Part shown: positions 1 to 53,730 of the stretch, one piece after another
How the letters are laid out: every line of letters starts with the position of its first letter
Position numbering within the stretch: the first letter of the stretch is position 1
Assembly: GCA_001972305.1 (NCBI GenBank)
Contig: BDDD01000565.1
Coordinates: 181,127 to 245,126, forward strand
DNA: 64,000 nt
Reading direction: 5' to 3'
Source: Cephalotus follicularis
Lineage: Eukaryota > Streptophyta > Magnoliopsida > Oxalidales > Cephalotaceae
Notes under the pieces: generated by a model
What the model was told of the DNA's origin: nothing
Databases searched by the model: none
Seen by the model: only the letters and a program-made list of their open reading frames with translations
Made by a program: the position numbers and the translations under genes

Positions 1-1471
1 TAAAGATATCGACATCTTTCCACCGTTTTAAAAAGGAGTCGAAGTCTTTCACCAAAGACATCGACGCCTAATGTACTGAAAGGAGTTTTTAACTGTTTTA
101 AAGCTGGCTTTCAACTTCTTTTCACATTGCCACTTGACTAGAGCCTCACTTGAGGTGTTCAAGTGTTTGAAAACAGTTTTAAATGATTGGATAAATTAAT
201 TGATTGCTTGAGTCGTGAGTGTTGTTATGAGTCTAAGTCGGTAAAATGGACGCACGTCTCCATCCCTCCATTAGGCACCATCATTTATCGGCCTTGTATC
301 GACGTTGTATTGATACATCGATCGATTGCTTGAGTCGTAAGTGTTGTTGTGAGTATAAGTTGGTAAGATGGACGCACGTTCCCATTTCTCCATTAGGCAC
401 CACCACTCATTGACTTTACTTAATGTTGTACTGACTCAATGGAATGATTGATTGTATTGTATGAATGCTATAGAGTGACCTTGTGGGTTACGTCGGCATG
501 TTAGGTTGACTTTGTCCACCTATTCCGTCGACCGTTTCTTTTATTGTATTGTCATACTGAGGAGCATGTGCTGACGAGCACGATTGATTGGCGATTGACG
601 CTCGCTGAGGGCCGTAGCTCCCTAATGGCATCAGTAGCTCCCTCAGCTGTAGCTCATCGAGATTGTATTGGCCCAGCCATAGGCTGGAAGATCTATGCGT
701 TCCAGACCTGATCAGTCTGAGAACCGTAGATAGATCTCCCACCCTTTTCGAAGGACTACCTTCCGTGGGATTGATCACTGCTAACTGATTGACACTGTAT
801 TGACACCGGTCGCATGCTCTATAGGATATTGATTGATTGATTGGGTGTTTCATACACCACCATTGAATGTCTGCTATTGATTGATTGATTATTATAGATC
901 CTATCCGTATGCTCTGTTATGGGCCATTGTCATACGGGTAGTCTGATCGCCAATTGTACATGTACATTTGTCATGTCATGCATTGATATTGTACACTGCA
1001 CATTGATATTGTATAAATTGTCACCGATATTGCACATTGTACATGCATACATGCTGCATGGGGTTTCTGCTTAGCCAGTGTGGCTAACCCCATCCTTCGG
1101 GGTGGGGCTGTGTTGTGCCTTTGTGTGCGGCATAGGTAGGGCAGCAGGTAGCAGTGGACAGAAGGACTGAAGACTGTTGATCGCATGACTGCTTGGGTAC
1201 CGCAGAGCTGGTTGTGAGACACCGTAGTAGATTTTGGAATGTATTGCTTTGAGATATTGAAATGAAAGATAGATATGTACTGTATTGTAATGCTGTTTAA
1301 AGGATTGCTATGTATTGAAAAGGCTTGTAATGTTTTGTATCTTCCGCAACTGATACGTATTGTAAAGTTTTAAAGTTTTCCGGATTTTTATATTGCGAGT
1401 CCCGACCATTTTATTGTGTATTGGATTGAGAGTAATGCCACGTGTCCGCCCTGCGGGCGCGGGGTGTTACA
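1..1471 (+). repeat. B-family Gypsy LTR, 3' portion, cut by window start
   Basis: This stretch is the reverse complement of 4014 to about 5485, a second copy of the same LTR, with only scattered differences by eye. It ends at 1471 with GGGGTGTTACA, a normal plant Gypsy LTR end. The start of the LTR and the element it belongs to lie left of the window. Where the LTR stops, sequence matching the E-family LTR begins, so this copy appears to have landed in an E-type LTR. A 121-residue open frame at 488-853 is present in both copies but has no recognisable domain and is most likely chance. The first 75 bases hold the edge of a TCGA-core palindrome array. Confidence 0.85.
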
Positions 1472-1848
1472 TTTCTTTCTCCACGTCAGTTCATTTAAGA
1501 TATTTTTTTTCAAGTAAGGACACGTGTCAAGCTAGGGAGTGAAGGAATTAGATATTTCAACCAGGTGTGATGAGTAGAATGATGATATGGGACAAGTGTC
1601 ATCAATTTGTAGGTGGCAAATGTAGTCACATGGGCAACTAACATGGTGACTCACATAGGAGGAAGCTTGCATCCCAAGTCTCTCTCTTTGTATATATATG
1701 TGTAGTTTTAGCCTGAAATGAGGTTGTCCTCTGCTGAGATTGACTAAGAATTCGGTTAAGTGAAGGAGAGAAGGATATTGAATTAAAGTAAGGATTCCTA
1801 TTCATTTTCTAAAGTATGAAATGTCCTGTTTTCTCTTGATATTTAGGG
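1472..1848 (+). repeat. E-family LTR fragment
   Basis: Nearly the same sequence occurs at about 22730-23098 inside the complete E LTR, in the same orientation. The fragment has neither LTR terminus. Its left edge is the B-family LTR end and its right edge passes directly into minus-strand integrase coding of element A. It may be what remains of the 5' LTR of E, or of another E-family copy. No gene is present. Confidence 0.8.
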
Positions 1849-4013
1849 GATGATACTGATAACCCCTCAACAAAGACACGTGGAACACATTATGGATGTG
1901 TGCTAACTGCGGAGGCAAAGCTAACCGATAAGCAACTGCGCCTACCTTCTCCAGAACTTCGAAAGGCCTTATATACCGTGGACTCAACTTTCCCTTCAGC
2001 CCAAAATGTCGGACTCCTTTCCAAGGTGAAACTTTCCAGAACACATGTTCACCTACCTTGAACTCCAAGTCCCTCCGATGTCTGTCCGCATAACTCTTCT
2101 GTCGAGATTGAGCTGCTTTCAATCTCTCCCTTTCTATAGCCACTTTCTCTGTAGTGATCTACACTAGCTCGGGTCCCTCGATAACTCGCTCTCCAACCTC
2201 ATCCCAATATGTCGGAGCTCGACACTTCCTCCCATAAAGAGTTTCAAATGGAGCCGTACCGATACTAGCGTGCCAACTGTTATTGTAGGCAAACTCCACC
2301 AAGCTCAAATACTCATCCCAGCTCCCAGTCCACTCCAAAGCACAAGACCTCAACATATCCTCCAAGGTCTGGATGGTCCTCTCAGTCTGCCCATCAGTAT
2401 GTGGATGGAAAGCTGTACTGTAACTGAGCCTAGTACCCCAAGCTTTCTGAAACTCTTTCCAAAATCGCGAAGTGAAACGAGGATCCCTATCCGAAACAAT
2501 GGATACCGGAGTCCCATGTAGTCTCACTATCTCCTGCTGAAACACCTCAGCTAAACAATCAACAGAGAAGTCCTCTTGGATAGCCAAGAAGTGAGCCAAT
2601 TTAGTCAATCGATCCACTACTACCCAGATAGCATCGTTTCTTCTGAAAGTTCTCGGCAAACCTGTAACAAAGTCCATCGAAATACTCTCCCATTTCCATA
2701 CTGGGACTTCCAAGGGCTGTAACAAACCACTAGCACGTTGGTGCTCAATCCTTACCTGCTGACAATCAAACACCTCCCAACATACTCCGCTACATCCCTT
2801 TTCATTCCATTCCACCAGAAAGTCTTCTTCAAGTCTCTATACATTTTCATAGAACCGGGATGTATAAAAAATGGAGAACTGTGTGCCTCTGACAAAGCAG
2901 CATCTCTGATAGAAGAATCTGACAGAACACACAACCGATTACCCAGCCATATCACACCACGCTCATCTATACGGAACTCTGACTGCTTTCTCTTTTCAAC
3001 ATCCTGGACTAAGGCCCAAAGTTCACCATCGTCACTTTGAGCTGTCTTAATCCGAGATAAAAGAGTAGGCTCTACGTTCATTGTAGCAACACAACCTTCA
3101 GAACCCCGAACATACAAATGCAAATCCATCCGCTCCATATCAGCTATCAACTGCGGCTGAGTAAGCAAAGCCGCTACAATCCCAGAACTCTTTCGACTAA
3201 GAGCATCAACTACCACATTTGCTTTACCAGGATGGTACTGAATATTTAGATCATAGTCTTTCAGAAGTTCCAACCACCTTCTCCGACGCATGTTCAACTC
3301 CTTCTGCGTAAAGATATACTTGGCACTCTTATGATTGGTAAAGACGTCACAAGTTTCTCTGTACAAGTAGTGCCTCCAGATCTTCAACGCAAACACTACT
3401 GCTACCAACTCAAGATCATGTGTAGGATAGTTCACTTCATAAGGCTTCAACTGTCTCGAAGCATAAGCTATCACATGACCGTGCTGCATCAAAACACACC
3501 CCAAACCCTTCTTAGAAGCATCACTGTAAATCTGGTATCCACCCGACCCAGATGGTAAACGAAGAATCAGTGCTGATACAAGACCATTCTTCAATTTCTT
3601 GAAACTTGCTTCACGCTCTTCATTCCATTCAAACTTAGCTCATTTCCTCATAAGCTAAGTTAGTGGTAAGGCTATAGAGTAAAAACCTTCCACAAACCGC
3701 CTATAGTATCCAGCCAAGCCCAAAAAGCTCCTAACTTCTTTCACTGTGGTAGGTCTCAGCCATTTATTAATAGCCTCTACTTTAGCAGGATCCACACAGA
3801 TACCTTCATCTGTAACCACGTGACCCAAAAATGCCACCTGTTCCAACCAGAACTCACACTTCGAGAACTTCGCGTATAGCTGATTCTTCCTTAGAATACC
3901 CAGCACAATACGAAGTTGTTCTTCATGTTCTTCTTTCAACTTGGAATACACAAGAATGCCATCTATGAATACAATCACAAACTGATCCAAGTACTCATGA
4001 AACACCCTATTAA
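1849..4013 (-). pseudogene. Element A (Ty3/Gypsy) pol, 3' portion: RT end, RNase H, integrase
   Basis: Read on the minus strand, this gives the end of a Gypsy reverse transcriptase (about 3655-4010, with the [14 protein letters not shown] connection motif), RNase H (about 3250-3594, [13 protein letters not shown]), and the integrase zinc-binding domain (about 2750-2880, [19 protein letters not shown]). The integrase core follows (about 2200-2720, [39 protein letters not shown]) and then a GKLSPRYIRPFEVLE C-terminal module ending near 1849. The upstream part of the same coding region appears at 15942, beyond the B/D insert. The copy is broken in several places, and its 3' LTR is not in the window. 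The product would be a polyprotein that copies element RNA and integrates the cDNA. Confidence 0.85.
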
Positions 4014-6442
4014 TGGAACACCCCACGGCTGCAGGGCGGACACGTGACATTACTCTCAATCCAATACACGATACAATGGTCGGGACTAGCAATATAAAAA
4101 TGCGGAAAACTTTAAGACTTTATAATACGTATCAGTTGCGGAAGATACAAAACATTACAAGCCTTTTCAATACATAACAATCCTTTAAACAGCATTACAA
4201 TACAGTACATATCCATCTTTCATTACAATATCACAAAGCAATACATTCCAAAATCTACTACAATCTCTCACAACCAGCTCCGCGGTACCCAAGCAGTCAT
4301 GCGATCAACGGTCTTCAGTCCTTCTGTCCACTGCTACCTGCTGCCCTACCTATGCCGCACACAAAGGTACAACACAGCCCCACCCCGAAGGATGGGGTTA
4401 GCCACACTAGCTAAGCAGAAACCCCATGCAGCATGTATGCATGTACAATGTGCAATATCGGTGATAATTTATACAATATCAATGTGCGATGTACAATATC
4501 AATGCATGACATGACAAATGTACATGTACAATTGGCGATCATACTACCTGTATGACAATGGCCCATAACAAAGCATACGGATAGGATCTATAATAATCAA
4601 TCAATCAATAGCAGACATTCAATGGTTGTGTATGAAACACCCAATCAATCAATCAATATCCTATAGAGCATGCGACCGGTGTCAATACAGTGTCAATCAG
4701 TTAGCAGTGATCAATCCCACGGAAGGTAGTCCTTCGAAAAGGGTGGGAGATCTATCTACAGTTTTCAGACTAATCAGGTCTGGAACGCATAGATCTTCCA
4801 GCCTATGGCTGGGCCAATACAATCTCGATGAGCTACAACTGAGGGAGCTACTGATGCCGTTAGGGAGCTACGGCCCTCAGCGAGTGTCAATCATCAATCA
4901 ATCGTGCTCGTCAGCACATGCTCGTCAGCATGACAATACAATAAAAGAAATGGTCGACGGAATAGGTGGACAAAGTCAACCTAACATGCCGATGTAACCC
5001 ACAAGGTCGCTCTATAGGATTCATACAATACAATCAATCATTCAATCGAGTCAGTACAACATTAAGTAAAGTCAATGAGTGGTGGTGCCTAATGGAGAAA
5101 TGGGAACGTGCGTCCATCTTACCGACTTAGACTCACAACAACACTTACGACTCAAGCAATCGATCGATGTATCAATACAACGTCGATACAAGGCCGATAA
5201 ATGGTGGTGCCTAATGGAGGGATGGAGACGTGCGTCCATTTTACCGACTTAGACTCACAACAACACTCACGGCTCAAGCAATCAATCAATAATCCAATCA
5301 TTTAAAACTATTTTCAAACACTTGAACACCTCGAGTGAGGCTCTAGTCAAGTGACAATGTGAAAAGAAGTTGAAAACCAGCTTTAAAACAGTTAAAAATT
5401 CCTTTCAGTACATTAGGCGTCGATATGACATCGACTCCTTTTTAAAACGGTGGAAAGACGTCGATGTCTTTAAAAGACATCGATGTCTTTCCCCATTTGT
5501 GTGGAGACCTGGCCGAAGACGTTGACGTCCTTTAAGAAAGGCGTCGACGCGTTTCAATAAAAATAGCCTGAGAATGCACATCGATATTCGGCATCGACGT
5601 CTTTCCAGGGGAGAGACATCTCGAGGCAAAGACATCGACGTCTTTGAAAGGCGTCGATGTCTTTGCTGCAGAATCAAGGATATAGCACTCGTATGAGAAA
5701 GACATCGACGTCTTTGGTCTAAGGGTCGATGTCTTTTCTGGGCAAAGTCGATTTTGTGCAGAAAATAGGGCCAATCTCGGGTGAAAATAAAATTTAAAGC
5801 CATTATTTGAAAACCAAAGTTTACAATCAATCATTTGAGGTTAGTAAGACTAGTTACAACCTTCCAAATTTGATTTCAATCATTCAATTTAACAATTAGG
5901 TCAAGGGTTTTCTATAAACCCTAAAAACCTCAATTCAATCACTCAATCACTCAATTCAATCATGCAATTCATTCAATCAATCAATAAAACAGTAGGCAAT
6001 TCAGTAAAGAAGTCCTACCTTTCACTGAAGTTTCAAAAGTTGAGCTAACGAACGATCAATCGGCTGAAAACACCCAATAATCCGCTACTTTCTTGTTCAA
6101 TCGGTAAGCCACCACTTGTAATCACTGTCCTTGTCGATGGAGATGCAATTCCGGCTACAAGGGAGGAAGATGGAGGCTCCAGCTAGAGAGAGAGAGGGAG
6201 AAGGATAGAGAGAGAAGAGGATATGAGAATAATGAGAGATAAGAGAGAAAGAATTGACTTAAATAGTCGATTCGATCAACTCTCCGAAACTCGGCCCAAA
6301 ATCCCGACTATACATGCATATAACCAATACAATATCAATAGGTATAAGAATACATCAAATCAATACAGTTCAGTACGGTCCAATACGGTACAATACGGTA
6401 TGATGTATGCATGAATATTACAAAGGGGAATTCGGGACGTCA
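4014..6442 (-). repeat. Element B 3' LTR (about 2.4 kb)
   Basis: On the minus strand the LTR starts at 6442 with TGACGTCCCGAATTCC, directly after a purine tract, and ends at 4014 with GGGGTGTTCCA. About 1.47 kb of its far end is repeated in inverted orientation at 1-1471. Its first 125 bases recur at 15816-15941. The U3 side contains long runs of ATTGATTG-type repeats, and a TCGA palindrome array lies at about 5405-5770. No TATA box was assigned with confidence. Confidence 0.85.
5405..5770. repeat. TCGA-core palindrome array in B LTR
   Basis: Copies of AAGACATCGACGTCTTT and close variants (GGCGTCGATGTCTTT, GACGTCGATGTC, AAGGCGTCGACG) occur roughly every 20-60 bases with unrelated spacers. 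Each copy is a near-palindrome around TCGA. The matching edge is at 1-75 in the inverted copy. The overlapping open frames here simply translate the repeat and are not genes. Confidence 0.8.
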
Positions 6443-6457
6443 AATTCTCCCCTCCTT
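6443..6457 (-). other. Element B polypurine tract
   Basis: On the minus strand AAGGAGGGGAGAATT directly precedes the LTR start TGACG. This is the expected place and composition for the plus-strand primer site of a Gypsy element. Confidence 0.75.
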
Positions 6458-6479
6458 AAAAGAATCTGGTCCCCAGATT

Positions 6480-9400
6480 CATCGGTCAAACAATCAATCA
6501 GTCAAAAAGGAAAGGATATGTCTCTCTCATATCGTCCTCGCGCTCCAGGTGCGCTCCATAGAACCGTGATACTGCCATAGAACACTGACCAAAGAGATGG
6601 TCTTGTTCCTCAATACTCTGGTCTGTCGGTCAACAATCTGTATAGGAGTCTCTGTAAACGATAAGTCAGGTGCTAGCTGAATCTAACCATACTCAATGAT
6701 GTGTGAAGGATATCGAACATATCTCCTCAACTGAGAAACATGGAACACATCATGCACTCCCGACAATGCTGGAGGCAAAGAAAGCCTGTAAGCAAGTCGG
6801 CCAATCCGATCTAATACCTCAAAAGGTCCAATAAAACGAGGAGAAAGCTTTCCTTTCTTCCCAAATCTCATGACTCCTTTAGTGGGCGACACTTTGAGGA
6901 AAACATGGTCACCAACACTAAACTCCAAGCCTCTGCGATGAACATCAGCATATCTTTTCTGTCTACTCTGTGCAACAATCAATCGGTCTCTAATTAGTTT
7001 CACTTTCTCTGCGGTAATCTGTACAATCTCTGGCCCCAAAATACTATTCTCACCGACCTGATCCCAACAAACTGGCGATCGACACTTCCTACCATATAGG
7101 GCTTCATAGGGAGCCATCTGTATGCTCTCGTGATAATTGTTGTTATATGAGAACTCAATCAAATGCAAGTAGTCATCCCAACTACCTCCAAAGTCGAGTA
7201 CGCATGCTCGAAGCACGTCCTCCAATGTCTGAATGGTCCTTTCGGACAAACCATCTGTTTGGGGATGAAAAGCAGTGCTGAAACTCAACTCTGTACCCAT
7301 AGCTACCTGTAACTTCCTCCAAAACCCGGAAGTAAAGGGAGAGTCTCGATCCGAAACAATGCTGACAGGAGCTCCATGTGCTTTAACAATCTCTTCCATG
7401 AACAATCTGGACAACTTTTCTCTAGAATAAGTCATCCGAATCGGTAGGAAGTGGGCCGACTTCGTGAGTCGATCGACCACAACCCAAATACCATCATGTC
7501 TATCATGGGTCAAAGGCAACCCAGACACGAAATCCATGGTAATGTGCTCCCATTTCCACTCAGGAATGAGCAAAGGCTGAAGCAAGCCCACCGGTCTCTG
7601 GTGCTCTGCCTTAACTTGCTGACGAGTAAGGCATCTCGATACAAACTCTGCGATTTCTCTCTTCATGCCAGTCCACCAATAGCTAAGTTTTAGGTCACGA
7701 TACATCTTCGTACTCCCTGGATGAACAGAGAGACGGGATTTATGAGCTTGAGAAAGAAGCTCTTCCTTCAACTCGCTATCGGCTGGAATGCAAATTCTGT
7801 TCCTGTATCTCAATAACCCATTTGTAGATAGAGAGAAATCGGGTTTCAATCCTTCATCAATAGCAGTAGCCACTTTCTGTAATTCAATATTCACTATCTG
7901 TGCATCTCTAATCCGGTCAAGCAATGCAGGTTGCACCTGTATATGGGAAAGAGTCATACAAGACAACTTGCGACTCATTGCATCTGCAACGACATTGGCT
8001 TTTCCAGGATGATATTCGATATCACAATCATAATCATTAAGAAGCTCAAACCACCTTCTCTGTCTCATGCTCAATTCCTTCGGTGAAAAGAGATATCTCA
8101 GACTCCTATGATCAGTGAAAACTGTGAACTTGGTCCCATAAAGGTAGTGGCGCCATTTTCCAAGAGCAAAGACAATGGCCGCCAACTCCAAGTCATGCAC
8201 TGGGTAGTTTTCCTCATGTGGTTTGATCTTCCTCGATGCATATGCAATCACTTTGCCGTATTGCATAAGAACACAACCAAGCCCCTTTCTAGAAGCATCG
8301 GTGTATACAACAAAGTCTTCGTTCCCGTCTGGCAAGGCTAGGACAGGAGCGGAAATCAATCTATCTTTCAACTCTTGAAAACTTCTTTCACAATCGCTAT
8401 CCCATACAAAGGCAGCGTTCTTCTATGTCAATCTGGTCAACGGTGTAACAATACGGGAAAATCCCTCAACAAACCGACGATAATACCCTGCTAAACCCAA
8501 GAAGCTGCGAACTTCGGAAGCATTCGTCGGTCGTCTCCAATCTTTCACTGCCTCTACTTTCAATGGATCCACTAATAAACCATTACCAGAAACAATATGC
8601 CCTAGAAAAGCAACCTCCGGTAGCCAAAACTCGCACTTGTCAAATTTGGCATACAGTCGGTGATCCCTCAAAGTTTGCAATACAATATAAAGGTGTTGGG
8701 CATGCTCCTCATCGGTTCTGGAATAGACCAAGAGGTCGTCAATGAACACTACAATGAACTGATCCAAATACTGGCTGAACACTCGGTTCATCAGGTCCAT
8801 GAAAGCCGCGGGAGCATTAGTCACACCAAAAGGCATAACTAAGAACTCATAATGGCCATATCTCGATCTGAAAGCCGTATTCGGAATATCCTCCGGTTCG
8901 AATTTCAACTGGTGGTAGCCAGATCTCAAATCGAGCTTGGAAAACACTGTCGCTCCTCTAAGCTGATCAAACAGCTCAACAATGTGCGGTAGAGGGTACT
9001 TATTCTTCACTGTAACTTTATTGAGCTGTCGGTAGTCAATACACATACGGAGCGATCCATCTTTCTTCTTGACAAAAAGGATAGGTGCTCCCCAGGGTGA
9101 AGCACTAGGTCTTATAAAGCCTTTGTCCAGAAGATTTTGTAACTGCATCTTTAACTCTTTCAATTCTATCGGTGCCATTCGGTACAGTGCTCAAGAAATC
9201 GATGCAGTTCCTGGTATCAGATCAATCACAAACTCTATCTCTCTGTCTGGCGGCAACGACGTCAAATCCTGAGGAAAAACATCTCCGAACTCGCAAACCA
9301 CTGGAATGTCCTCCAGTCCCGGCCGCCATCTGTCTGTATCAAGCACATGTACAAGAAACCCCTGGCATCCCTGTCGTAACAATCTGTCCGCATGCAAAGC

Positions 9401-11116: not shown

Positions 11117-12081
11117 TTAATCAATTTCCTGTCAAACACTAACTATTAAGTTTAAAACCTGTTTACTGCCATTATTAGACTTTCCAGGACTTACTAACAA
11201 TCTTAACAGTAACAAAACATGCATGGCAGGAAATCAAAACTAAAACTCACTAGCAACCACATGAACATGCATTGGATATCATTAAACTGATTTTAATTGT
11301 TAAACCATAATAACAGAGGAAGACAAACCTGGTATGATGATCAAAGGAGAACAAAACGAATACTAATCTTGCAGGTTCGGCTCTAGGAGGAAGATACACA
11401 GTGGAGGCACAACCATGAACATATAGCATACATATACAACTTAGAAAAGGCAATTTAGGTCATGCTAAGCCAAAAAGGAAATCAAAATCTGTTATGATAA
11501 GGAAAAGGAGCAAAATTTTTGGGATTTGTGAGTGAGAATTGAGGAAAGGAATCTGTTTTTGTGAGGGAGAAGGAAGAAAAACGGGAAAGGGGGGGAAGAA
11601 AGGGAAAAATAAGTCTTTATTCCAATAAATGAATATTTTGTTTCCTAATAATTTAATTTTGCCATTTATAATAAATAAAACTAATTTTAATCAATTTAAA
11701 ATGCCAAACAACCATTATTACTTATTACAATTATATTTTATCAATTATCCAAAGGCAATATAATTGGTATTAGAAAGCCCAAAATAAAAGGATTTGTTTT
11801 CCAATTAAACCAATTTCACCACGTTAATAATAAAAACCAATTTAATATTTATACGAAATATAATTCAATTAATTTTACCTATTCATATACATAATCCAAC
11901 CATATAATAACAAGACAATAGATTTTTGTTTTTCCAACAATCATATCCTAATAAAATAAAAGCCCTAAATTTAAATTCTCACAACCCAAGGAACACATTA
12001 TGCCACAACAAAATATGCCAACACAACCAATAAATCAAATTTAAAATCCGAAATATGCACGTGAATGAACGGGGTATTACA
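11117..12081 (-). repeat. Element D 3' LTR, first part only
   Basis: Starts on the minus strand at 12081 with TGTAATACCCCG, right after a purine tract, and matches 14656-15622 along its whole length. It stops where element B gag begins. Small open frames such as 11250-11453 recur in the other copy and have no domain. Most of the rest is AT-rich. Confidence 0.85.
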
Positions 12082-12477
12082 TCCTTCCCCCCTTAAAAAG
12101 ATTTCGTCCCGAAATCTTAACATATATCAATCCGAAATAAATAACAGCAAAGACACACCAAGATGCATAACAAACAATTCAGTTACCATAGCATAAGTTG
12201 ACTTATCAATCAAAAACAAACTTCTCACGGTTACCAAACAAAACAAAACCAAAACAATACCTGGAGCATTTCCTTGTGGGATATTCCTTGCTCGTACCAT
12301 TTACGAAACATAAATCCCAAAACATAACACAACAACAACAGAGAAACCAAGGTTGAAACAACAAACACGTCAGAAAGATCACAACAAAATATCCTAACCC
12401 AAGGTCTACCCAGTCTCACAGGTCAAACCTAGACAGGTCTTCTAAGGAAAGCAAAACCTATTCTCTGATACCATAAC
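12082..12477 (-). other. Element D interior: primer site, leader, gag start remnant, purine tract
   Basis: On the minus strand this runs from the primer site (12462-12473) through a leader similar to 18108-18260 of element A. A short Gag-like start (MVRARNIPQ, near 12298) follows, then unassigned sequence, then a purine tract (AAGGGGGGAAGG, 12083-12094) directly before the 3' LTR. Protease, RT, RNase H and integrase are absent. The signals needed for reverse transcription of a substrate RNA are therefore visible while the enzymes are not. Confidence 0.75.
12462..12473 (-). other. Element D primer binding site (initiator tRNA-Met)
   Basis: The minus strand reads TGGTATCAGAGA four bases after the LTR end. 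This is one mismatch from the complement of the plant initiator tRNA-Met 3' end, the usual primer for plant Gypsy and Copia elements. Confidence 0.8.
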
Positions 12478-15400
12478 TGTAACACCCCCGATTCGGAGGG
12501 AGTCGTCGCGGGTCCTCATCCGAGACTAAACATAACCGATCATATGACATGGGTCAATTTTATTCTTTTTATCAATTTATTAACTTAGCATATATTCCTA
12601 TTTAACTATAAATCAAGGTTCGTCTTTATTCTTACTATCAAATTATTAACTCATCTTTTATTCAAGTTGCATGATGGTCTAAACGTAACAATTATAATCT
12701 AATAATGGTCTAGCAACTTTATTCAATATATGAGACTTAAACATAAACTGGAAGTTAAAACATAAACCAAAAGCTTAAACATAATTGTAAGTCAAAACTG
12801 AAAAACATAATATAGTTTTAAGGGGTCCTAACATAACCATAAAATAACTAAGCAAAAACGAGTCCATCTCCTAAGTAATCCTTATCATAGGTGACATCTC
12901 GCTCATCACACATTGCCCGGATGCTGTCCCATAGTACCTGCCGCATGGAAACAAAAACGCGGCTGAGCAAACCTCAGTACGGATATAGAATCATAAAACA
13001 TAAAACGATAATTTATGATATAGAAAAATACCTGAATCTTTAAGTATCATATACTTTATGCATAAAAATAAATTAACATTATTTTCAAAAAGAGTGAAGG
13101 TAAGTAGTCATACAATCAATTCAAACAAGTATTAAATTTTCAAGCGTTATTCAATTTTATAATCTAGGTTCAACATCCCAAAACATATTCAAAACGAAAA
13201 ACAACAAACAGAGACTTATCTGATTCCATAATATCATTACCGAGATCCAAAGTGCATACACATATGCATAGGTACAAGGGGTTCATGAGGCACACATGCC
13301 AAACGGAAGGACGTGTACGGCACTACACAATCAATCCCCAGAATCCGTGTCCTTAACATAACATATAACTAGAGTATACCCATACGTCTCTATCACACAA
13401 AATCGGATCCATAAATCCACCTCATGGGATTTATTCAAAACAAAGAGAGACGCCGTAGTCGAATCACACCGCTACGGAAGTGTCACGTCCCCGTGCCAGG
13501 CCCACGATGTGCCTATGGTACCTCCATAGGTAGGAAATATCTATGTGTATAAACTTATTTCGAAAACATTGATTTATTTCTAAAAACAATTTAAAAACGT
13601 AAACACATTTTCTAACATTTCTAGACATAGCAAAAATCATTACGTAGTATCAACTCATTTATTTTTCCACTATAAAGAGATGATCATTTCATAAAATATC
13701 GTAGTGTATCTTAGCATAAAAATATAATTAGGAACATTTAATTTCATAAAATGTCAAAAACCAATTTATTTATGTGACATATCATAAAACATAATCAAGT
13801 CTATAAAACAAAATCATAGAATAAAACTGATTTTAGTTTAATGAACAGATAGCCAAAGAAAGAAAGACATTCGTACGTTATTCATAAAGTTAGACTATAT
13901 TTTTATTTACCATAGTAAAACCAATAGGAGGGTATCAAGAAACGAAGATCCGTACATTTTATCCAAAAACATATAACTGATTTATTTTAATAAAATCATC
14001 AGAGTACATCAAGGAACGGAAAATCCTACCTTAAGCGATCACAACAAAGATAGATGAATTGATCAACAATTAAAAGTCCTTCGAAGCACAAAAATCTAAA
14101 AGATGCAATATCATTCATATAAGCATTCAAATATCACTTCCAAACATCAAACAGTAATTTAACAATGCTTAAAACATGCTCCAATTCATTACAAAACAAA
14201 ACGGATGAAAAAATTTGAAACCAGAAAATTTTCTGGGTAATTCCAGTCGACTGTATCAGGGTCCAGTCGACCACTCAAAGGTGGCAGTCGACTGTGTGGC
14301 ATTGGCAGCCGACTACTCAACTGGGTATGAATCCGGTCGACTACTCAAAGGGTGGCAGTCGACTACTCAAACTGGGTTGAATCCAGTCGACTGGGACAGG
14401 GGTCCAGTCGACTGTGCAAGGCCAAACAGTCGACTGTTTCAAGAGGCAGTCGACTGTTCTGGGCGACAGAACAGCAAAAACACAGCAATTTAATTCCAGT
14501 TTTCTGTCAAACATCCAATATTACTATACTAAATGATTTCAAACACTTACATATGACTTATGTGACTTATCAGTTGCATTTAAACATGCAGAAATCATGC
14601 AGTGGGTGATCTTTCTTTTAAGGGAAGCAAACTCTACTTCATAGCATGCATAACTATTAATCAATTTCCTGTCAAACACTAACTATTAAGTTTAAAACCT
14701 GTTTACTGCCATTATTAGACTTTCCAGGACTTACTAACAATCTCATAACAGTAACAAAACATGCATGGCAGGAAATCAAAACTAAAACTCACTAGCAACC
14801 ACATGAACATGCATTGGATATCATTAAACTGATTTTAATTGTTAAACCATAATAACAGAGGAAGACAAACCTGGTATGATGATCAAAGGAGAACAAAACA
14901 AATACTAATCTTGCAGGTTCGGCTCTAGGAGGAAGATACACAGTGGAGGCACAACCATGAACACATAGCATACATATACAACTTAGAAAAGGCAATTTAG
15001 GTCATGATAAGCCAAAAAGGAAATCAAAATCTGTTATGATAAGGAAAATGAGCAAAATTTCAGGATTTGTGAGTGAGAATTGAGGAAAGGAATCTGTTTT
15101 TGTGAGGGAGAAGGAAGAAAAACGGGAAAGGGAGGGAAGAAAGGGAAAAATAAGTCTTTATTCCAATAAATGAATATTTTGTTTCCTAATAATTTAATTT
15201 TGCCATTTATAATAAATAAAACTAATTTTAATCAATTTAAAATGTCAAACAACCATTATTACTTATTACAATTATATTTTATCAATTATCCAAAGGCAAT
15301 ATAATTAGTATTATAAAGCCCAAAATAAAAGGATTTGTTTTCCAATTAAACCAATTTCACCACGTTAATAATAAAAACCAATTTAATATTTATACGAAAT

Positions 15401-15622
15401 ATAATTCAATTAATTTTACCTATTCATATACATAATCCAACCATATAATAACAAGACAATAGATTTTTGTTTTTCCAACAATCATATCCTAATAAAATAA
15501 AAGCCCTAAATTTAAATTCACATAACCCAAGGAACACATTATACCACAACAAAATATGCCAACACAACCAATAAATCAAATTTAAAATCCGAAATATGCA
15601 CGTGAACGAACGGGGTACCACC
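12478..15622 (-). repeat. Element D 5' LTR (about 3.1 kb)
   Basis: Runs on the minus strand from 15622 to TGTTACA at 12478, immediately before the primer site. The first 965 bases are duplicated at 11117-12081. The part near 12840-13000 (GCTGAGCAAACCTCAGTACGG) and the end resemble the LTR of element A at 18278-21015, placing both in one lineage. A CAGTCGACTG array lies at 14245-14472. The remainder is AT-rich without genes. Confidence 0.85.
14245..14472. repeat. CAGTCGACTG palindrome array in D LTR
   Basis: Eleven or so copies of CAGTCGACTG or one-base variants (CAGCCGACTA, CGGTCGACTA) are spaced 15-30 bases apart by non-repeated sequence. The array ends with a TGTTCTGG..GACAGAACAGC stem-loop that recurs at the end of the array in element A. 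An open frame across it is a by-product of the repeat. Confidence 0.85.
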
Positions 15623-15815: not shown

Positions 15816-15941
15816 CATATAACCAATACAATATCAATAGGTATAAGAATACCTCAATTCAATACAGTTCAGTACGGTCCAATATGGTACAATACGGTAC
15901 GATGTATGCATGAACAGTACAAAAGGGAATTCGGGTCGTCA
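15816..15941 (-). repeat. B-family LTR head remnant
   Basis: About 125 bases nearly identical to 6317-6442, the first bases of the B 3' LTR, in the same orientation. It starts on the minus strand at 15941 with TGACGACCCGAATTCC directly next to element A RT coding. It is probably the outer end of B's 5' LTR, the rest having been replaced by F and D sequence. Confidence 0.75.
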
Positions 15942-18260: not shown

Positions 18261-18272
18261 GCTCTGATACCA
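18261..18272 (-). other. Element A primer binding site (initiator tRNA-Met)
   Basis: The minus strand reads TGGTATCAGAGC, an exact complement of the plant initiator tRNA-Met 3' end, a few bases after the LTR end at 18278. Confidence 0.9.
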
Positions 18273-33059: not shown

Positions 33060-34313
33060 TGTTGGCCTTTGCCACCCCGTTTAATTACGTTTACATATGT
33101 TATTTTGATGATTAACAAACATAGATTACTTGTATGCATAATTCCTTGAGTTATAACTTCATATACTCACTTGATTTTATGTCCAAAGTTGTGCCAAGAA
33201 CATTTTTGCAGATACAGGCCAATCCAGCCGACTGGCAAGCAATCCAGTCGACTGCCCAAGGTTGAGTAGTCGACTGGTTCTTCAACCAAACTCAGAATCT
33301 GCAGGAACACCAATCCAGTCGACTGCCATAGGGGTCCAGTCGACTGCCAGGCCAAGACAGTCGTCTGCCACAGGACACCAGTCGACTGCCATGGGGTACA
33401 AATTCAGGCAGTAGCTTATGTATCATTTCAACACCCAATCCAGCCAACTGAAGCAGGGCACCAGTTGACTGCCAGGGGATCCAGTCGACTGCCAGTGAAT
33501 CCAGCCGACTGTTTTCATTTGTGCAAAATCAGGCAGTAGCAATTCTAAACTCCAATTTCAGCTCAACAGCCGACTGGAACAGAGCAACCAGTCGACTGCC
33601 AGCTCAACCAGTCGACTGCCAGGAGAAAGCAGTCGACTGTCCAACACCAACGGCTATATTCAAATATACGTGCCATCAATCCAGCCGACTGCCGTACAAA
33701 TCCAGCCGACTGGATTTGTAACAGACCTTTAAAAATAGATCCGTTGGAGGCACACCTGTAAGAGGAAAATTGGAGCTCTTGCACAAGTGATCAAGCATTC
33801 AAGTTGCATATTCTTTCAAGCTATCTCAAGTACAATACCAAGCTTTCAAACAATCAAAAGAGATCATTTCGAAGCAATCCTATACATTACAAAGCTCACA
33901 TTTTACATTCCACATTTACTAGAAGCTTTGTTAGAAGTTGAGCTTTATTGTAAACAAATTCATTACGAATTTGTAACCCTTTAAACACTTATTTCACTCA
34001 TACAAGAGAGGTTGTCTCTTGTATTGCTCGGTTGGAGCAAAGTTGTAATTCGCTTGGTTGGAGCGAAAGTTGTTGGAGCTCGGTTGGAGTTTCAAGCCCG
34101 GATTGGGGCATACGTAGTGAAATACTTAAGGGGAGGCCTTGGGGAGTGGACGTAGGCGGTTTGCCGAACCACTATACATCCGTTTGCAAATTCTCTTAAC
34201 CCTACACTCTTTACATTTCCGCAATTGTGTGTTTGTGACAATTGAATTATTTGTGGTATAATTGCTAGTTATTTTTTAATAAGTCTATTCACTCCCCCTC
34301 TAGACTTCCTACA
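33060..34313 (+). repeat. Element L 5' LTR (1254 bp)
   Basis: Starts TGTTGGCCTTTGCC and ends TTCCTACA directly before the primer site. It includes a CAGTCGACTG array (33220-33715) and the GTGGACGTAGGC..GCCGAACCAC block (34145-34172). Confidence 0.93.
33220..33715. repeat. CAGTCGACTG palindrome array in L 5' LTR
   Basis: Around eighteen copies of CCAGTCGACTGCC and variants, 10-35 bases apart. The motif is the same as in the A, D and K LTRs although L is Copia. The corresponding 3' LTR array (38935-39395) differs in copy number and in many C/T positions. Confidence 0.88.
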
Positions 34314-34326: not shown

Positions 34327-34362
34327 AGGGTTACTCTTTATTAAAGATTAACATCTTGAGTT

Positions 34363-37192: not shown

Positions 37193-38126
37193 TACCATTG
37201 TCATGACTTGGTTAGAAACTATGGGTTGGTTTGATTACATTTGCTCATCTCATGTCATATACCCTAGGTTAGTGAAGTTGTTCTATGCAAATTTAGAGTC
37301 TTCCACCTCTTGCATTGCAAATTCCTTTGTTTTAGGCACTCCTATATCTATTACTCCCGATTTAATTGTCGAAACCTTAGGAATTCCTAATGAAGGAATC
37401 ACTCATTTTAATGACATTGGTAAAACGGAGGCCCTAGGAATTTGTTTAGAACAACCTAATGTCAATCCTCTTATGAATGTGACAAGTAGCCATTTGCCCA
37501 TTGCCTCTAGGATCATTCTACTTCTTGTAACAAACACATTCCTCCCAAAAGAAGGCTCGCACACTCTTCCTTCCGAGCGAGACCTTAAATTCGTTGCTTG
37601 TGTTAAGAATGGAACCCCAATTAACCTTCCCTATCTTATTGTCAACCACTTATTGTCTAGACCAAATCACACTCCTTATCCTATGCTTCTCAGTAGGATC
37701 ATTATGGTTGTCCTTGCATCACTTAACATAGATATTCCTGATGATGAGAAAAGTGTCAAACCTACCCATAAGCAATTGGTGAATAAGGCAGGGCTTAGAC
37801 TATGTAACATTATATTTGAGGAAGGTGAGTGGGTCAAGTTACAAGGAAGAGGTAGAGAGCAAATAAGAGAGCAAGCCAATGTACGAGCAGGAGATGATGA
37901 GGATGATGATGAGGACGATCCTCAGCAGTTTGAGATGCGTCCGAATGTTGGCACGAGCAGCAGCAGCAGTAGCAGGCCTACCCTGGAGTCACTTCAGGCT
38001 AGGATGGACTTGGCTCAGGCCGACATTGATTATCTTCGAGGTCGTGTGGACCAGATATACGAGGGACAAGCCACCATCATTCAGATGTTTCAGAATGCTT
38101 TTCCTCAGCACCCTCCTCCCTCTTGA
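37193..38126 (+). pseudogene. Element L extra 3' reading frame (plant transposon-associated domain)
   Basis: About 307 readable residues from just right of the gap: WLETMGWFDYICSSHVIYPR, LVKLFYANLE, GTPISITPDLIVETLGIPNE, MNVTSSHLPIASRIILLLVT, HTPYPMLLSRIIMVVLASLN. An acidic linker (GDDEDDDEDDPQQFE) and a C-terminal heptad-like helix (LESLQARMDLAQADIDYLRG) complete it. The order of globular domain, acidic stretch and helix resembles the H frame, and the position between pol and the 3' LTR is the same. The N-terminus may be hidden by the gap. No signal peptide or membrane span is seen. I take it for the same PF20167-like family. Within 37203-38126 the frame is open. Confidence 0.65.
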
Positions 38127-38776: not shown

Positions 38777-39673
38777 TGTTGGCCTTTGCCACCCCGTTTA
38801 ATTACGTTTACATATGTTATTTTGATGATTAAAAAACATAGATTACTTGTATGCATAATTCCTTGAGTTATAACTTCATATACTCACTTGATTTTATGTC
38901 CAAAGTTGTGCCAAGAACATTTTTGTAGATACAGGTCAATCCAGCTGACTGGCAAGCAATCCAGTCGACTGCCCAAGGTTGAGTAGTCGACTGCCAGAGG
39001 TTGTGTAGTCGACTGGTTCTTCAACCAAACTCAGAATCTGCAGGAACACCAATCCAGTCGACTGTCACAGGGGTCCAGTCGACTGCCAGGCCAAGACAGC
39101 CGACTGCCACAGGACACCAGTCGACTGCCATGGGGTACAAATTCAGGCAGTAGCTTCTGTATCATTTCAACACCCAATCCAGCCGACTGAAGCAGGGCAC
39201 CAGTCGACTGCCAGGGGATCCAGTCGACTGTCAGTGAATCCAGTCGACTGTTTTCATTTGTACAAAATCAGGCAGTAGCAATTCTAAACTCCAATTTCAG
39301 CTCAACAGCCGACTGGAACAGAGCAACCAGTCGACTACCAGCTCAACAGCCGACTGGAACAGAGCAACCAGTCGACTACCAGCTCAATCAGTTGGAGCAA
39401 AGTTATAATTCGCTTGGTTGGAGCGAAAGTTGTTGGAGCTCGGTTGGAGTTTCAAGCCCGGATTGGGGCATACCTAGTGAAATACTCAAGGGGAGGCCTT
39501 GGGGAGTGGACGTAGGCTGTTTGCCGAACCACTATACATCCGTTTGCAAATTCTCTTAACCCTACACTCTTTACATTTCCGCAATTGTGTGTTTGTGACA
39601 ATTGAATTATTTGTGGTATAATTGCTAGTTATTTTTTAATAAGTCTATTCACCCCCCCTCTAGACCTCCTACA
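38777..39673 (+). repeat. Element L 3' LTR (897 bp, shortened)
   Basis: Matches the 5' LTR at both ends but lacks about 430 bases from inside the CAGTCGACTG array to the GGTTGGAGCAAAG region, and has two small extra array units. It ends at 39673 followed by CCAAG. The conserved GTGGACGTAGGC block is at 39505-39532. Confidence 0.9.
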
Positions 39674-39678
39674 CCAAG

Positions 39679-40628
39679 AAATGAGCATATTGCCTAAGAA
39701 TTGACATGTGCCACTTGTGCTCTTTCTATCCACCTTATATCCTCCGAAATCGGCATCAGAGTAAGTGTGTAAGTCAAATGAAGATTTCCTAGGATACCAT
39801 AATCCTAAGGACGGTGTATATGCTAAATATTTGAAAAAGCGTTTTACGGCATGCAAATGAGATTCTTTGGAACAAGCTTGAAATCTAGCACACAAGCATA
39901 CACTAAACAAGATATCCGGCCTACTTGCCGTTAAATACAACAACGATCCAATCATACTTCTATATAATTTTTGATCGATTGACTTACCTTGCTCATCCTT
40001 GTCCAGCTTTGTTGTTGTGCTCATGGGTGTCTTGCTCTTTTTTGCATTCTCCATCCCAAATCTCTTAAGTAAGTCCTTGACATACTTTGATTGATTGATG
40101 AAGATGCCTTCCTCCAATTGTTTGACTTGAAGTCCAAGGAAGTAATTTAGCTCACCCATCATGCTCATTTCGAATTCCACCTGCATAATCTTAGCAAAGT
40201 TCTTGCACAAGTTTTTGTTAGTAGAACCAAATATGATATCATCTACATATACTTGAACAATCAAAATTTCATCATTGACAGATTTTGTAAAAAGGGTAAT
40301 GTCAATGGTGCCTCTTTTGAAACCGTTTTCAAGTAAATAACCACTAAGCTTTTCATACCAAGCTCTTGGAGCTTGTTTCAAGCCATATAAAGCCTTTGAA
40401 AGCTTAAAAACATGATTGGGAAAACGAGGGTTTTCAAACCCGGGAGGTTGTTCCACATACACTTCCTCCTTTATTAACCCATTTAAGAAAGCACTTTTGA
40501 CATCCATTTGAAAAAGAGTAAAATCTTTAAAAGAAGCATATGCAAGCAACATACGAATAGATTCTAATCTTGCTACGGGTGCATAAGATTCATCAAAGTG
40601 AATTCCCTCTTCTTGGGAATAACCCTTA
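39679..40628 (-). pseudogene. Element H reverse transcriptase (Ty1/Copia)
   Basis: The minus-strand reading has [110 protein letters not shown] and [20 protein letters not shown], the full set of Copia RT blocks. It begins abruptly after the H 5' LTR piece and is interrupted by L, beyond which RNase H lies. The RT itself reads nearly clean. Confidence 0.92.
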
Positions 40629-41477
40629 AATTCACTAGGGTTCACTCCCCTATTACAATCAAAGTATAAAGAGTAGTGTTGGTATCTAAACCTCTCACAA
40701 GGTTGGATTTTACAAGATAAAATTGCTCAAATCAGTGAGAACAAGAAATAGCTCAAAATGTAAAATGTAAACTATTTGGATGAGCTTTGGATTTGAATCC
40801 TCTTTTAATGTTTGCTTTGAATGATGTTTGTATATGTGCTTTGCTTGTGTTGTTCTTTTTTCATTCTTCAAAACTTTCGTCCATTTATAGCTTCTTGCCT
40901 CATAGATCCGTTGGGAAAGCATTAGGATTAATTCCTTAATGGAATGTCCACTAACACTCTGTCAGAAACTGTTCCAGCCGACTAAAGCGTCGACTGTCAC
41001 GCTTAAAGCGTCGATGGTCATGTGACTGTTGGGGATCTCAAATTTGAATCTTCAACTCAAAGCCCAGGCGTTCAAAACATTGGAGTCGACTGGCACCTCA
41101 AAGCGCTAACGCTTAGTCTTGGGCATCGACGCTTAAGCAGATTTTAATTGCCATTTGCTCCACTGGTTTAGCCGACAGGCGCTTTGCACAAAGAGCAGGC
41201 GCTTAGTGCCCCAAAGCGCAGACACTTTGAATCTAGGCGTCGACGGTTGAAGTGTTTGTTCCAATTCTCCAAGTGCTTCACCGGTAGGCACTTTGTTCCT
41301 TGTCTCGACCGTTTGTCAAAGCGCAGACGCTTTAATCTTGGGCGTCGACGGTCTGAGCTGTTTTCTGCATAATTCTTGCTGTTTTGCTCACTTTGTTTCT
41401 TTCTTGCACATTAAGAAACTTTGTCAAATACAAATATGTTATCATCAAAACTTAGGATTGAGACATAAATGTCAACA
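40629..41477 (-). repeat. Element H 5' LTR, first part
   Basis: Starts on the minus strand at 41477 with TGTTGACATTTATGTC and matches 29491-30328. It stops where RT coding begins, so the end of the LTR, primer site, gag, protease and integrase are lost. It carries the GCGTCGACGC-type array at about 40975-41365. Confidence 0.85.
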
Positions 41478-41966
41478 CTACCTCAACTGTAGAAACTTGA
41501 TCTCTTATAGTTCTAGCTTCCAGAATCCTTCTCCGTACTTTCCTTCCTTGTCGTTAGACACGAACAGTTGCTCCTTTGACCTCTAACCACACTCTCACCC
41601 TAACAATTACTCCTTCACTCTCAGTGTAGTCCACTTCATGTCACTCTCAAGGCTATAAGTGAGGGGATTGAAACGAGAGTGAGAGGAGAGACAAGAATTC
41701 TCTAGACAATGACAGACTCTTTTCTCCTTCCCCAAAAGTTGCAACAGCCATCCCCACTGCATCACTTTCTATTATATAGACATACAGTGGAAGGCTCTGA
41801 AACTTCCTACACATTTCTTCAACCGGTGCATACATTATGTGGACTAAGCACTTCAGTCGGCCCAACACTCCCTTTTCTCTATTAAATCCAAGCTCGGCCC
41901 AATAACAATAATAAACATTTTGAGCCCAATTTTCATGCTACCCATAATAAAATTCCGGGTGTTACA
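41478..41966 (-). repeat. G-family LTR head
   Basis: Matches 28679-29161, starting on the minus strand at 41966 with TGTAACACCCGG. Cut at 41478 by the start of H. Probably the outer remnant of the 5' LTR of element G, into which H landed. Confidence 0.82.
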
Positions 41967-50660: not shown

Positions 50661-51478
50661 TAACCCAGTCAGCATTTCAACTAGAAATTAGTTCCCAAAT
50701 CTCCACAAACGGCTCTATTTTGCCAAGGACTATAAATTGAAGACTTTGGCAGATAAAGACAATTAATAACATTTATCAACTCCCACCAAGCAATCAATTC
50801 AATCAAGCAAATTTTCTCAAGATCAAAAGTCTCAAGGTTGAAGAAAGTTTTTATTTTCTTATCCTGAGTGTTGTAAGTGAGCATATTTATTCAATATCAA
50901 ACCTTGTAGAGGTTACATAAAAACACCAAACACTCATTTGTAATCTTGATTATCAAGAGGAGTGAACCCTTGTTACACTTTGTTCAGAAAGTGTATGTGA
51001 TTGAATTCAATCACGGAAATTATAAGGTGCACCGAATTGCTCCCGTAAAGAAATTCGGAGTTTGTATTCACGGTTGAATACTAGTCGAATCTCAAGAATG
51101 TCTTGGAAAAAGTGGACGTAGGAAAAAGTTTAGCCGAACCACTCTAAATTGTGTTTGCAATTTCTAAACCCTTATGCTTTACTTACATTTCAATTCAAGT
51201 CATTTACTTACTAAATTTGAATTGCCTGAGTATTGTTTAGCATTCTATCTTTAATTTTCTAATTTTGTATTCATAAATTGAAAAAGTTCATAATTTCACA
51301 TATAATATAATTGTAATACTCACAATTTTATATTCGATGTATATTGTACCATTAATGAATAAAGTATACATTGAACTGAGAATTTTTGCTTAATTGCCTT
51401 TTAATTGAGCAATGTGTCGATACTGAATTAATGTGAAAGCTAGTTGTATGGTATTGACTTCAATGAGGGTTTACCACC

Positions 51479-51603
51479 AGCCGATTGTTTGGTAAGACAG
51501 CCGACTGGGAGACCTGAGGTGGCAACAGTCGAATGTTAGATAAACAGTCGACTGGATGACTAATGAATGAACAGCCGACTGTCCACAGGAAGCAGTCGAC
51601 TGT
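51479..51603. repeat. CAGTCGACTG array 1 in K
   Basis: About six copies (CAGCCGATTG, CAGCCGACTG, CAGTCGAATG, CAGTCGACTG) with variable spacers. Confidence 0.8.
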
Positions 51604-52339: not shown

Positions 52340-52497
52340 AAAGCAGTCGACTGTCTTGGTTAACAATCGACTACTAAATGTAAACAACCGACTGTTAAGT
52401 GTAAACAGTAGACTACTCAAGGTATCCAGTCGGCTATTCATAAGTGATAGCCGACTGTGCAAGGACTCAGCCGACTGCTAAGTGTAACAGTCGACTG
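52340..52497. repeat. CAGTCGACTG array 2 in K
   Basis: About eight copies (CAGTCGACTG, CAATCGACTA, CAACCGACTG, CAGTCGGCTA and others) 12-20 bases apart. Confidence 0.8.
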
Positions 52498-53730
52498 TTA
52501 AATGATTTTATTCCCCCGGACAGGAGCTGTTTAGGCTAAATGACCTGTAATTATACTAACTTCCGTAAGGGATGATTCCAATAATCAACCTTGATATGTA
52601 TAATCAAAATATACAGCAAGTGAATGACTTATGCACCTTGTGATTGCATAGATTGATATTGAGTGTAACTTGTTCATGGTTGAAATCCTTGAATTGCTGT
52701 TGTTATGCCATGTTATTGTTACGATTATGAAATTGTTATTGCTGCTGCTATAGGTATTTAATATCTATCAAAGTATTTCATAATACTATTGTTTCAAGTG
52801 ATTTCAAAAGTGTAAGTGTTCAAGTGTTCAAGTGTGTTCTCTAATGAAGAACCTATTGAAAGTGTTTTACTAGTTTCTCTAGAAACGAGAATACTGTTTT
52901 ATTACATTACCTATGTAATATCATTGAATTGTTTGTGATTGAAGTGAAGCCGATGGTTTAGTGACCGTAGTGGGTCACTAGACTACAGCGGTGAGCGGAT
53001 GTGCCAGGAGTTGGCTCTTGCTTATACACCAACTTATCTGCAATGCAGAATGTGAGTACGTGATTTCCCGCCAAGTGCCAAAAATAGTGTTTACCCTTTC
53101 TATCATCATCGGAGTGCATGGTGGTAGTTGGGAAGTGCATCGATTGAGCTAGGAGGTAGCACAAGATGACACCCACCAATGGTCTTTGGACAAAGTGATT
53201 GATTGTTTGTACCCTTGTGTGCTATGATTGATACGTGAATGAGTGTAGCCACTTGGCATGATTGTTTATATATTGTCATATATATTAACTTTTTCAAAGG
53301 ATAAATTATCATGCATGGTTTCATCTTATATTCATTGTCATGCATATTGCCTACTTAGCCAAGTGAGGACAATGGCTAATACCTACCATTTCAGATTGAC
53401 AAGGTGAAGTGGAGTTGACTGCTGAAGCCGTTCTTGAAGGCTTCTCTTTTTTAAGGTTGTTAATGTTAATTTGTAATAATCATAGTCCGTTATGTTATTT
53501 TTACATTTCAGATATGTAACATATAACTTGTGTTGTACTTGTACGCATGTAGTATGGTCTACATGTGGAGACTTAAATAATCCAGTATGTGAATGCTTCC
53601 GCAAGTTTTAAAGTTTTGATTGTTTTGGATTATTGTTAAATACTGGATTATTAACTGATAACCATATATATGTTGTTAATGGAAAACGGGGTGTGACAAT
53701 AATTGACCACCCTCTTGTAGTACTTTCAAT

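Follow-up and report, generated by a model that had tools for sequence, protein, structure and literature searches.

TCGA-centred palindrome arrays in Gypsy and Copia long terminal repeats of Cephalotus follicularis: putative rows of sites for a dimeric DNA-binding protein

Why do retroelements of both the Gypsy and the Copia type carry, in their long terminal repeats (LTRs), rows of short palindromes built around TCGA? The question is raised by a stretch of 64,000 nt of Cephalotus follicularis (contig BDDD01000565.1, 181,127-245,126). This whole stretch is the window referred to below, and coordinates are window positions unless another contig or locus is named. A first-pass annotation had noted the arrays under the letters A, B, D, H, J, K and L, which were mapped to individual arrays in the present analysis. 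It offered three causes: a site for a dimeric host factor, an RNA stem-loop code, or a product of template switching. The first fits best of the three. Judged from sequence, the arrays are probably rows of sites for a putative dimeric, sequence-specific DNA-binding protein or small protein family.

The arrays are real and extend far beyond the window. The window contains 30 perfect TCGA-core palindromes of at least 10 bp. Sixty dinucleotide shuffles gave 2.7 on average and never more than 6, and no other core among the 16 tested there is as strongly enriched. Lesser enrichment over the shuffles is seen for TATA (26 vs 6.3), ATAT (23 vs 6.7) and TGCA (13 vs 5.2). Stretches of 5 kb cut from ten contigs at fixed positions, ten in all, together hold 10 TCGA-core palindromes (mean 2.1, maximum 5 in 40 shuffles). 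Genome-wide counts were made over 1.577 Gb in 9,746 contigs. The 10-mer CAGTCGACTG occurs there at 197,377 places, compared with 939 for its reversed form, also a palindrome and of the same composition. AAGCGTCGACGCTT is found at 18,108 places (15 for its control), and pairs of GACRTCGAYGTC with 1-30 bp between them number 18,444 (62 for the control).

Three classes of palindrome are present. CAGTCGACTG is found in the LTRs of Gypsy and Sirevirus-like Copia elements, the GACRTCGAYGTC type in Gypsy, and the AAGCGTCGACGCTT type in Copia. The palindromy of CAGTCGACTG ends at 10 bp, the first flanking bases being complementary in 24 of 123 cases (expected share 0.32). A longer CAGTCGACTG palindrome was considered and rejected, as flanks 2-5 are near expectation. 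TCGA to CCGA is the commonest single change in CAGTCGACTG. It yields CAGCCGACTG, the commonest variant in Copia, which is found genome-wide 88,572 times on one strand and 88,820 times on the other (control 708 and 622).

The distance between palindromes is regular. Exact CAGTCGACTG pairs 11-40 bp apart from centre to centre (1-30 bp between) number 48,686 genome-wide. Of these, 38,192 are at 19-22 bp and 7,682 at 27-28 bp, so that 45,874 (94%) fall in 6 of 30 distances. Among the matches listed, all 69 pairs are in those classes, with 57 at 19-22 bp and 12 at 27-28 bp. A relaxed motif gave 36 arrays (230 sites in all), collected from the window, the ten 5-kb stretches and the first-listed places on contig C1, a set that includes LTR pairs of one element and related copies. 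There, 141 of 194 neighbour distances are at 19-22 bp and 14 at 27-28 bp. The other two classes behave similarly among the matches listed. Forty-five of 50 AAGCGTCGACGCTT pairs are at 19-22 or 42-43 bp (the rest at 18, 23, 32, 32 and 36), and 47 of 50 GACRTCGAYGTC pairs are at 19-22 or 40-42 bp, the other three lying at 29-31 bp, or three turns. The pair searches were bounded above at 40, 44 and 42 bp, and the distributions are cut there. Palindromes of 10, 14 and up to 18 bp (the B type) are separated by spacers of about 11, 7 and 1-4 bp and share a centre distance of about 21 bp. It is therefore the centre distance that is held, not the length of the spacer. The spacers had been described as unrelated and 10-60 bases long. 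They are indeed mostly unlike one another, but their length is not arbitrary, since centre distances are mostly 19-22 bp.

On the proposed reading, each palindrome would hold one dimer. Palindromes about two helical turns apart would place neighbouring dimers on one face of the DNA, where they could touch and bind cooperatively. Strong binding would then arise only where several sites are in phase, so that the system would act in LTRs and not at isolated sites that occur by chance. Such a row may serve as an enhancer or as an anti-silencing platform.

The 27-28 bp class has a feature of its own. Some arrays have the layout 21-28-21 (e.g., L075, L076 and L082), and array C1_57420 is near 20-22-21-28-21-22-20. 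Forty-one strings from the 28-bp gap were obtained, or 39 once strands were merged, and 26 of the 39 contain CACG or CGTG, against 4.1 in shuffles. When similar strings are collapsed, a centred CACG core, starting at gap base 5-7, is present in 7 of 14 (1.3 in shuffles); neither CACG nor CGTG occurs in any of the 28 distinct 11-bp spacers. This suggests a second factor's binding site set into the row at the 27-28 bp gap, although half of the collapsed set is without CACG.

The arrays of the window are as follows.

1-71, plus strand: last part of another B-type array (3 sites; spacings 30 and 22), lying in an inverted B LTR copy at 1-1473
~4012-6444, minus strand: 3' LTR of a minus-strand Gypsy element, host of the B array, extent taken from 20 family copies
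5424-5760, minus strand: B array, AAAGACRTCGAYGTCTTT-type (the same as GACATCGACGTC type), 9 sites with at most 5 mismatches, spacings 30, 19, 42, 22, 50, 41, 19 and 51
14244-14456, minus strand: A array, CAGTCGACTG, 8 relaxed sites, in the 5' LTR (15617 down to ~12476) of a minus-strand Gypsy-type element
19737-19900, minus strand: D array, CAGTCGACTG, 6 relaxed sites with more degenerate ones between and before them, in the 5' LTR of a minus-strand Gypsy element
29836-30204, minus strand: H array, AAGCGTCGACGCTT-type, 9 sites with 2-4 mismatches, spacings 21, 95, 20, 70, 23, 21, 84 and 21
32454-32562, minus strand: internal array of the H type, 4 sites with 2-4 mismatches, spacings 21, 53 and 21, upstream of a PF20167 open reading frame (ORF) at 31056-32027
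33225-33712, plus strand: K array, CAGTCGACTG, 14 relaxed sites, in the 5' LTR (33060-34313) of a plus-strand Sirevirus-like Copia element
38962-39378, plus strand: L array, CAGTCGACTG, 15 relaxed sites, in the 3' LTR (38777-39673) of the K element
40985-41353, minus strand: J array, a second copy of the AAGCGTCGACGCTT-type H array, 9 sites with 2-4 mismatches, spacings as at 29836
51478-51602, strand not assigned: CAGTCGACTG-type array, 6 relaxed sites, spacings 20, 28, 19, 27 and 21
52344-52497, strand not assigned: CAGTCGACTG-type array, 7 relaxed sites, spacings 20, 21, 42, 21, 20 and 20

The hosts of these arrays belong to both superfamilies. The B element has a polypurine tract (PPT) and a TG start near 6444, with integrase, RNase H and reverse transcriptase (RT) at 6683-9178. 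The A element has its primer-binding site (PBS) at 12463 and a truncated 3' LTR at 12075-11115, and is called Gypsy by the relationship of its LTR, 68-78% in blocks, to that of the next element, D. D has a PBS at 18262, gag at 17287-18108 and protease/RT at 15869-16792. The array at 52344-52497 is placed in a Gypsy-family LTR by the likeness of window 53250-53462 to L106, where a PBS and then Gypsy gag, protease and RT come after the 5' LTR that contains a four-site array. The arrays of A, B, D and L106 belong to Gypsy. The Sirevirus-like carriers are K/L and L105, the latter with three copies of GGGGGAGA before its 3' LTR. The K/L element has a PBS at 34316, the target-site duplication CCAAG, a Copia gag at 34363-35118, a Sirevirus-like PPT, AAAAAGGGGGAGAT, before the 3' LTR, and a C-rich LTR end. 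The LTR of the H array starts at 30328 with a Sirevirus-like PPT junction and is adjoined by a PF20167 ORF, and a Copia RT ORF (39629-40645) lies beside J in an unusual order; the host of H and J is probably a minus-strand Sirevirus-like Copia element. One 10-mer, CAGTCGACTG, serves both Gypsy (A and D) and Copia (K and L), which bears out the earlier remark that one palindrome design is present in the LTRs of both. One correction concerns H and J, whose LTRs in the window each contain nine relatives of AAGCGTCGACGCTT with 2-4 mismatches and no exact copy of it.

The use of one site by both Gypsy and Copia makes a host factor, exploited by many families, a likelier reader than a protein encoded by the elements. 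Shared sites may also reflect descent rather than function, with one ancestral module transferred between the two superfamilies through recombination or template switching. Such an exchange is compatible with a row of dimer sites and is possible, if somewhat doubtful, as the origin of the shared arrays. Two adjacent spacers flanking one site are common to Gypsy A and Copia L, and TTCTG or CAGAA lies within 25 bp of 38 of 72 array edges (e.g., 14457-14480), against a shuffle mean of 3.9, in a set of 36 arrays that counts LTR pairs and related copies separately. The stretch common to A and L is, however, inverted relative to transcription, which simple template switching of co-packaged RNAs would not give, and the other two motif classes would need an origin of their own with the same spacing. 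On contig C1, an internal Copia array at 7490-7674 has CAGTCGACTG sites with one GACATCGACGTC-type site, otherwise seen in Gypsy B, between them.

Conservation separates the motif from its surroundings. All comparisons of motif, spacer and flank are raw base differences per position. Over ten pairs of related arrays, which reuse sequences, differences are found at 104 of 933 motif positions, 282 of 1266 spacer positions and 710 of 3730 LTR flank positions. In five non-overlapping pairs, chosen after the numbers were known, the motif differs at 54 of 414 and the spacer at 138 of 502 positions (Fisher p = 6e-8). The A family, made up of 20 fetched copies (of 40 places listed) and the window copy, has 61 differences in 2100 motif positions, 144 in 2372 spacer positions and 158 in 4154 flank positions. 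Between the two LTRs of one element (K/L) the order is reversed: motif 9/150, spacer 10/264, flank 3/164. Young B copies also show the reversed order, with 72/3617 in the motif and 64/4608 elsewhere (p = 0.04). The contrast between lineages differs from that of the B copies at p = 7e-6 and from that of K/L at p = 0.11. Once a copy is dead, its motif thus changes no more slowly than other positions; lineages that go on copying appear to preserve the motif.

These values bear on a neutral minisatellite, in which a unit of about 21 bp would have been tandemly duplicated and left to decay, unread by any factor. The units do share an orientation, four-site and eight-site layouts recur across families, and ACAGG-type words are present in 7 of 51 distinct spacers (strings picked by hand from the CAGTCGACTG pair rows with near-duplicates dropped, each word counted twice in data and shuffles alike). 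The first-pass annotation had linked simple tandem duplication to spacers as conserved as the motifs; instead, the motif differs between lineages half as often as the spacers do. One centre distance is also combined with three different palindromes, the palindromy is kept, and arrays stand at two presumed promoters of the same element. A purely neutral repeat is hence improbable. Tandem duplication is part of the origin of the rows and does not account for their conservation: on the dimer-site reading, rows would have grown at least partly by duplication and then been held by selection in copying lineages while the spacers drifted. The shared constraint proposed earlier gains support both from the motif/spacer contrast and from the centre distance of about 21 bp common to three palindromes.

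Deamination was considered as the source of the palindrome, with CAGCCGACTG decaying to CAGTCGACTG. K and L differ as CAGCCGACTG versus CAGTCGACTG at some sites, as deamination would give. In the reference frame of the A family, TCGA cores are found at 9 of 10 sites and exact CAGTCGACTG at 6, so the palindrome is probably more than a decayed form. Protection of the core CpG from decay was also considered: CAGTTGACTG occurs genome-wide at 10,378 and 10,983 places (control 2,035 and 2,138), few beside the count of CAGTCGACTG, but young copies show no clearly lower decay at the core than at other positions.

An RNA feature would use the same palindromes differently. Hairpins in array transcripts would be used by the element or seen by the silencing machinery, possibly through small RNAs. 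Pieces of two arrays fold better than whole-sequence shuffles, and do so more strongly in sense (z = -5.6 and -4.5) than in antisense (z = -2.3 and -2.7), and small RNAs are drawn to the palindrome regions of maize Sireviruses (PMC10760457 and PMC5311732). When only the spacers are shuffled, however, folding is about equal, with mean z of -0.13 in sense and -0.47 in antisense for nine arrays of known sense, and -0.48 over all 72 strands. CAGCCGACTG, the main Copia variant, sets C against A in the sense RNA and breaks the pairing. A fixed centre distance with palindromes of 10-18 bp is also unlike loops, and 18-bp B neighbours at 19 bp leave about 1 bp between them. A stem-loop code is thus disfavoured, and we give it little credence.

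The placement of the arrays points to promoters. In K, 12 of 14 sites precede a TATA-like box, CTATATTC, at 33654. In H, all nine sites precede the TATA-like CTATAAATGG at ~29741, which is downstream in sense. The L LTR is without ~390 bp (39378-39388, against 33640-34028 in K). The LTR of L105 agrees with K here, so a loss from L of the segment with the TATA-like box seems likely. The arrays do lie in LTRs, as first described, but are not confined to them, since Copia elements have further arrays ahead of an accessory ORF. The K-like Copia L105 has a four-site array whose last site ends ~115 bp short of the ATG of a PF20167 ORF of 385 aa (L105 1277-2434). Six CAGTCGACTG-type sites at C1:7490-7674 are upstream of another. 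No TCGA array was seen before the PF20167 ORF of the K element (37203-38126) in the window's list of TCGA palindromes. With arrays upstream of a TATA-like box in two Copia LTRs and before the accessory ORF, the likeliest task of a row would be to open or drive the promoters of the LTR and of this ORF.

The PF20167 ORF itself is a candidate for the reader on the Copia side. By analogy with VANC proteins, an accessory protein encoded by the element would bind the arrays and remove silencing marks, and the arms of the palindrome would change with the protein. PF20167 (Transposase_32) is related to ORF1 of Athila, a Gypsy lineage, according to PMC11728184. The arrays are polar and lie in non-coding DNA, either in LTRs or before the ORF. 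Elements of either Copia motif class have a PF20167 ORF, and the window's two ORFs, 19% identical where aligned, are paired with different motifs. VANC21 binds YAGTATTAY in dense, one-orientation arrays in non-coding regions of VANDAL DNA transposons; these arrays likewise grew by tandem repeats, and related VANCs use other motifs (PMC5735166). VANC is, however, a proven element-encoded protein of a DNA transposon, and its motif is non-palindromic and rare outside one family; palindromes and spacers go unmentioned in the available text of the same paper. Gypsy elements share CAGTCGACTG, yet a PF20167 ORF was not seen beside the Gypsy arrays, whose loci are partial. The predicted model of PF20167 is unusable (mean predicted local distance difference test score 45), and no DNA-binding fold turned up, no fold search having been made. 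Comparison with solved structures gave four weak matches in the C-terminal part, the best at E = 0.009. Two PF20167 ORFs match neither DUF1985 nor DUF287 in Pfam at E up to 10 within the HMMER filters. An anti-silencing protein of this kind is therefore unlikely, though less so than a stem-loop code or a neutral repeat. In all, 331 relatives were found; among the matches listed, 120 of 120 are from Cephalotus.

Several observations weigh against a row of dimer sites. Within the K/L element, the contrast between motif and spacer is small (p = 0.33), and the significant contrast, between lineages versus young B copies, spans different motif classes. Core CpG sites have no clear protection from decay in young A and B copies: in B, decay stands at 12/260 for the core, 18/260 for the outer part and 11/120 for the spacer, and in the A family at 14/210 for the motif and 1/42 for the flank. 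No TATA-like box was found near Gypsy arrays A and D. A distance of 27-28 bp is not a whole number of helical turns, and AAGCGTCGACGCTT pairs also occur at spacings of 36, 32, 18 and 23. The arrays also have a polarity that a symmetric dimer would not need: among the 14 with two or more asymmetric sites, 12 have CCGAC alone or GTCGG alone. Variants pointing one way are consistent with a polar unit growing in tandem, or with an asymmetric protein. Tandem growth also agrees with the like orientation of sites and with the spacer words in common.

The arrays have a precedent in the Sireviruses. According to PMC2829016, the LTRs of these Copia elements have repeated motifs (RMs) with a CGG-CCG core in all but Tnd-1, a feature termed Sirevirus-specific. 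As in Cephalotus, many dyad-symmetric copies lie in the upper half of the LTR, and a second cluster precedes a 3' ORF (env in Sirevirus, PF20167 in Cephalotus). The RM copies of the LTR stand shortly before the TATA box, a placement seen in Cephalotus for K and H. The flanks are divergent in both, and 2 of 13 RMs are TCGA-cored, ACAATCGATTGT of Tnd-1 and CGGTCGACCG of Vitis (PMC2829016). The parallel drawn in the first-pass annotation was right. RMs are counted as at least 8 copies of a dyad-symmetric motif per element; K and L have 14 and 15 relaxed sites, and H and J have 9 each. Extra copies upstream of a 3' ORF are present in L105, in the H element and at C1:7490-7674. Unlike the RMs, Cephalotus cores are TCGA and not CGG-CCG (with one CCG in CAGCCGACTG), and the arrays are also found in Gypsy LTRs. 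An analysis of spacing was not encountered in the accessible part of PMC2829016. Maize Sireviruses also have palindrome clusters in the regulatory region of the Copia LTR, but there the motif is CACCGGAC..GTCCGGTG, it is found in Copia, and the regions are described as folding and as hot spots of small RNAs (PMC5311732 and PMC10760457).

The sites also resemble the dehydration-responsive element/C-repeat (DRE/CRT) of the AP2/ERF factors CBF/DREB, as CAGCCGACTG contains GCCGAC. GTCGAC is a site of barley HvCBF2. CBF/DREB factors bind single non-palindromic sites, and the ATCGAT form of the B motif is unlike a DRE. We know of no identified reader of plant LTR palindrome arrays. A literature search with little subscription coverage found no paper on palindrome arrays in Gypsy LTRs or in Cephalotus LTRs. 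The letters of CAGTCGACTG occur in 29 papers, and the 20 of these that were listed bear titles on unrelated matters. Palindrome arrays in plant LTRs are already known; the literature listed gave no earlier case of one motif in both Gypsy and Copia, of a helical lattice across motifs or of the gap element.

With TCGA cores, helical phasing and carriers in Gypsy, the Cephalotus arrays go beyond the Sirevirus-specific picture. One geometry in both superfamilies, with the palindrome varying in length, suggests a protein whose copies touch one another along the DNA, and offers a route to isolating it. As one genome has ~200,000 exact sites, the factor would encounter very many repeats. The question bears on how plants switch classes of elements on and off, and on how unrelated elements adopt one switch. 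More speculatively, and as a tentative view that we hold less likely than the dimer sites themselves, the arrays may follow a common cis grammar in which TCGA palindromes are the interchangeable words, the two-turn pitch the syntax and the CACG gap the punctuation. Gypsy and Copia would have converged on this grammar or exchanged it, recruiting one cooperative row of protein that would hold promoters open in the face of silencing, and changes in the arms would mark changes in the protein.

Some structural details of the window stand apart. Two tandem arrays at 55742-55928 and 58014-58328, with periods of 25 and 28/56 bp, have no TCGA palindromes. The A element (12077-15617) consists of a 5' LTR, PBS and PPT, the latter two within ~360 bp, with its 3' LTR cut at 11115 and no internal coding region. 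The J LTR is permuted, 40628-41477 matching 29479-30328 and 41478-41966 matching 28680-29161. At the junction, 41477-41478, the start of the LTR abuts its far part, like a two-LTR or tandem junction.

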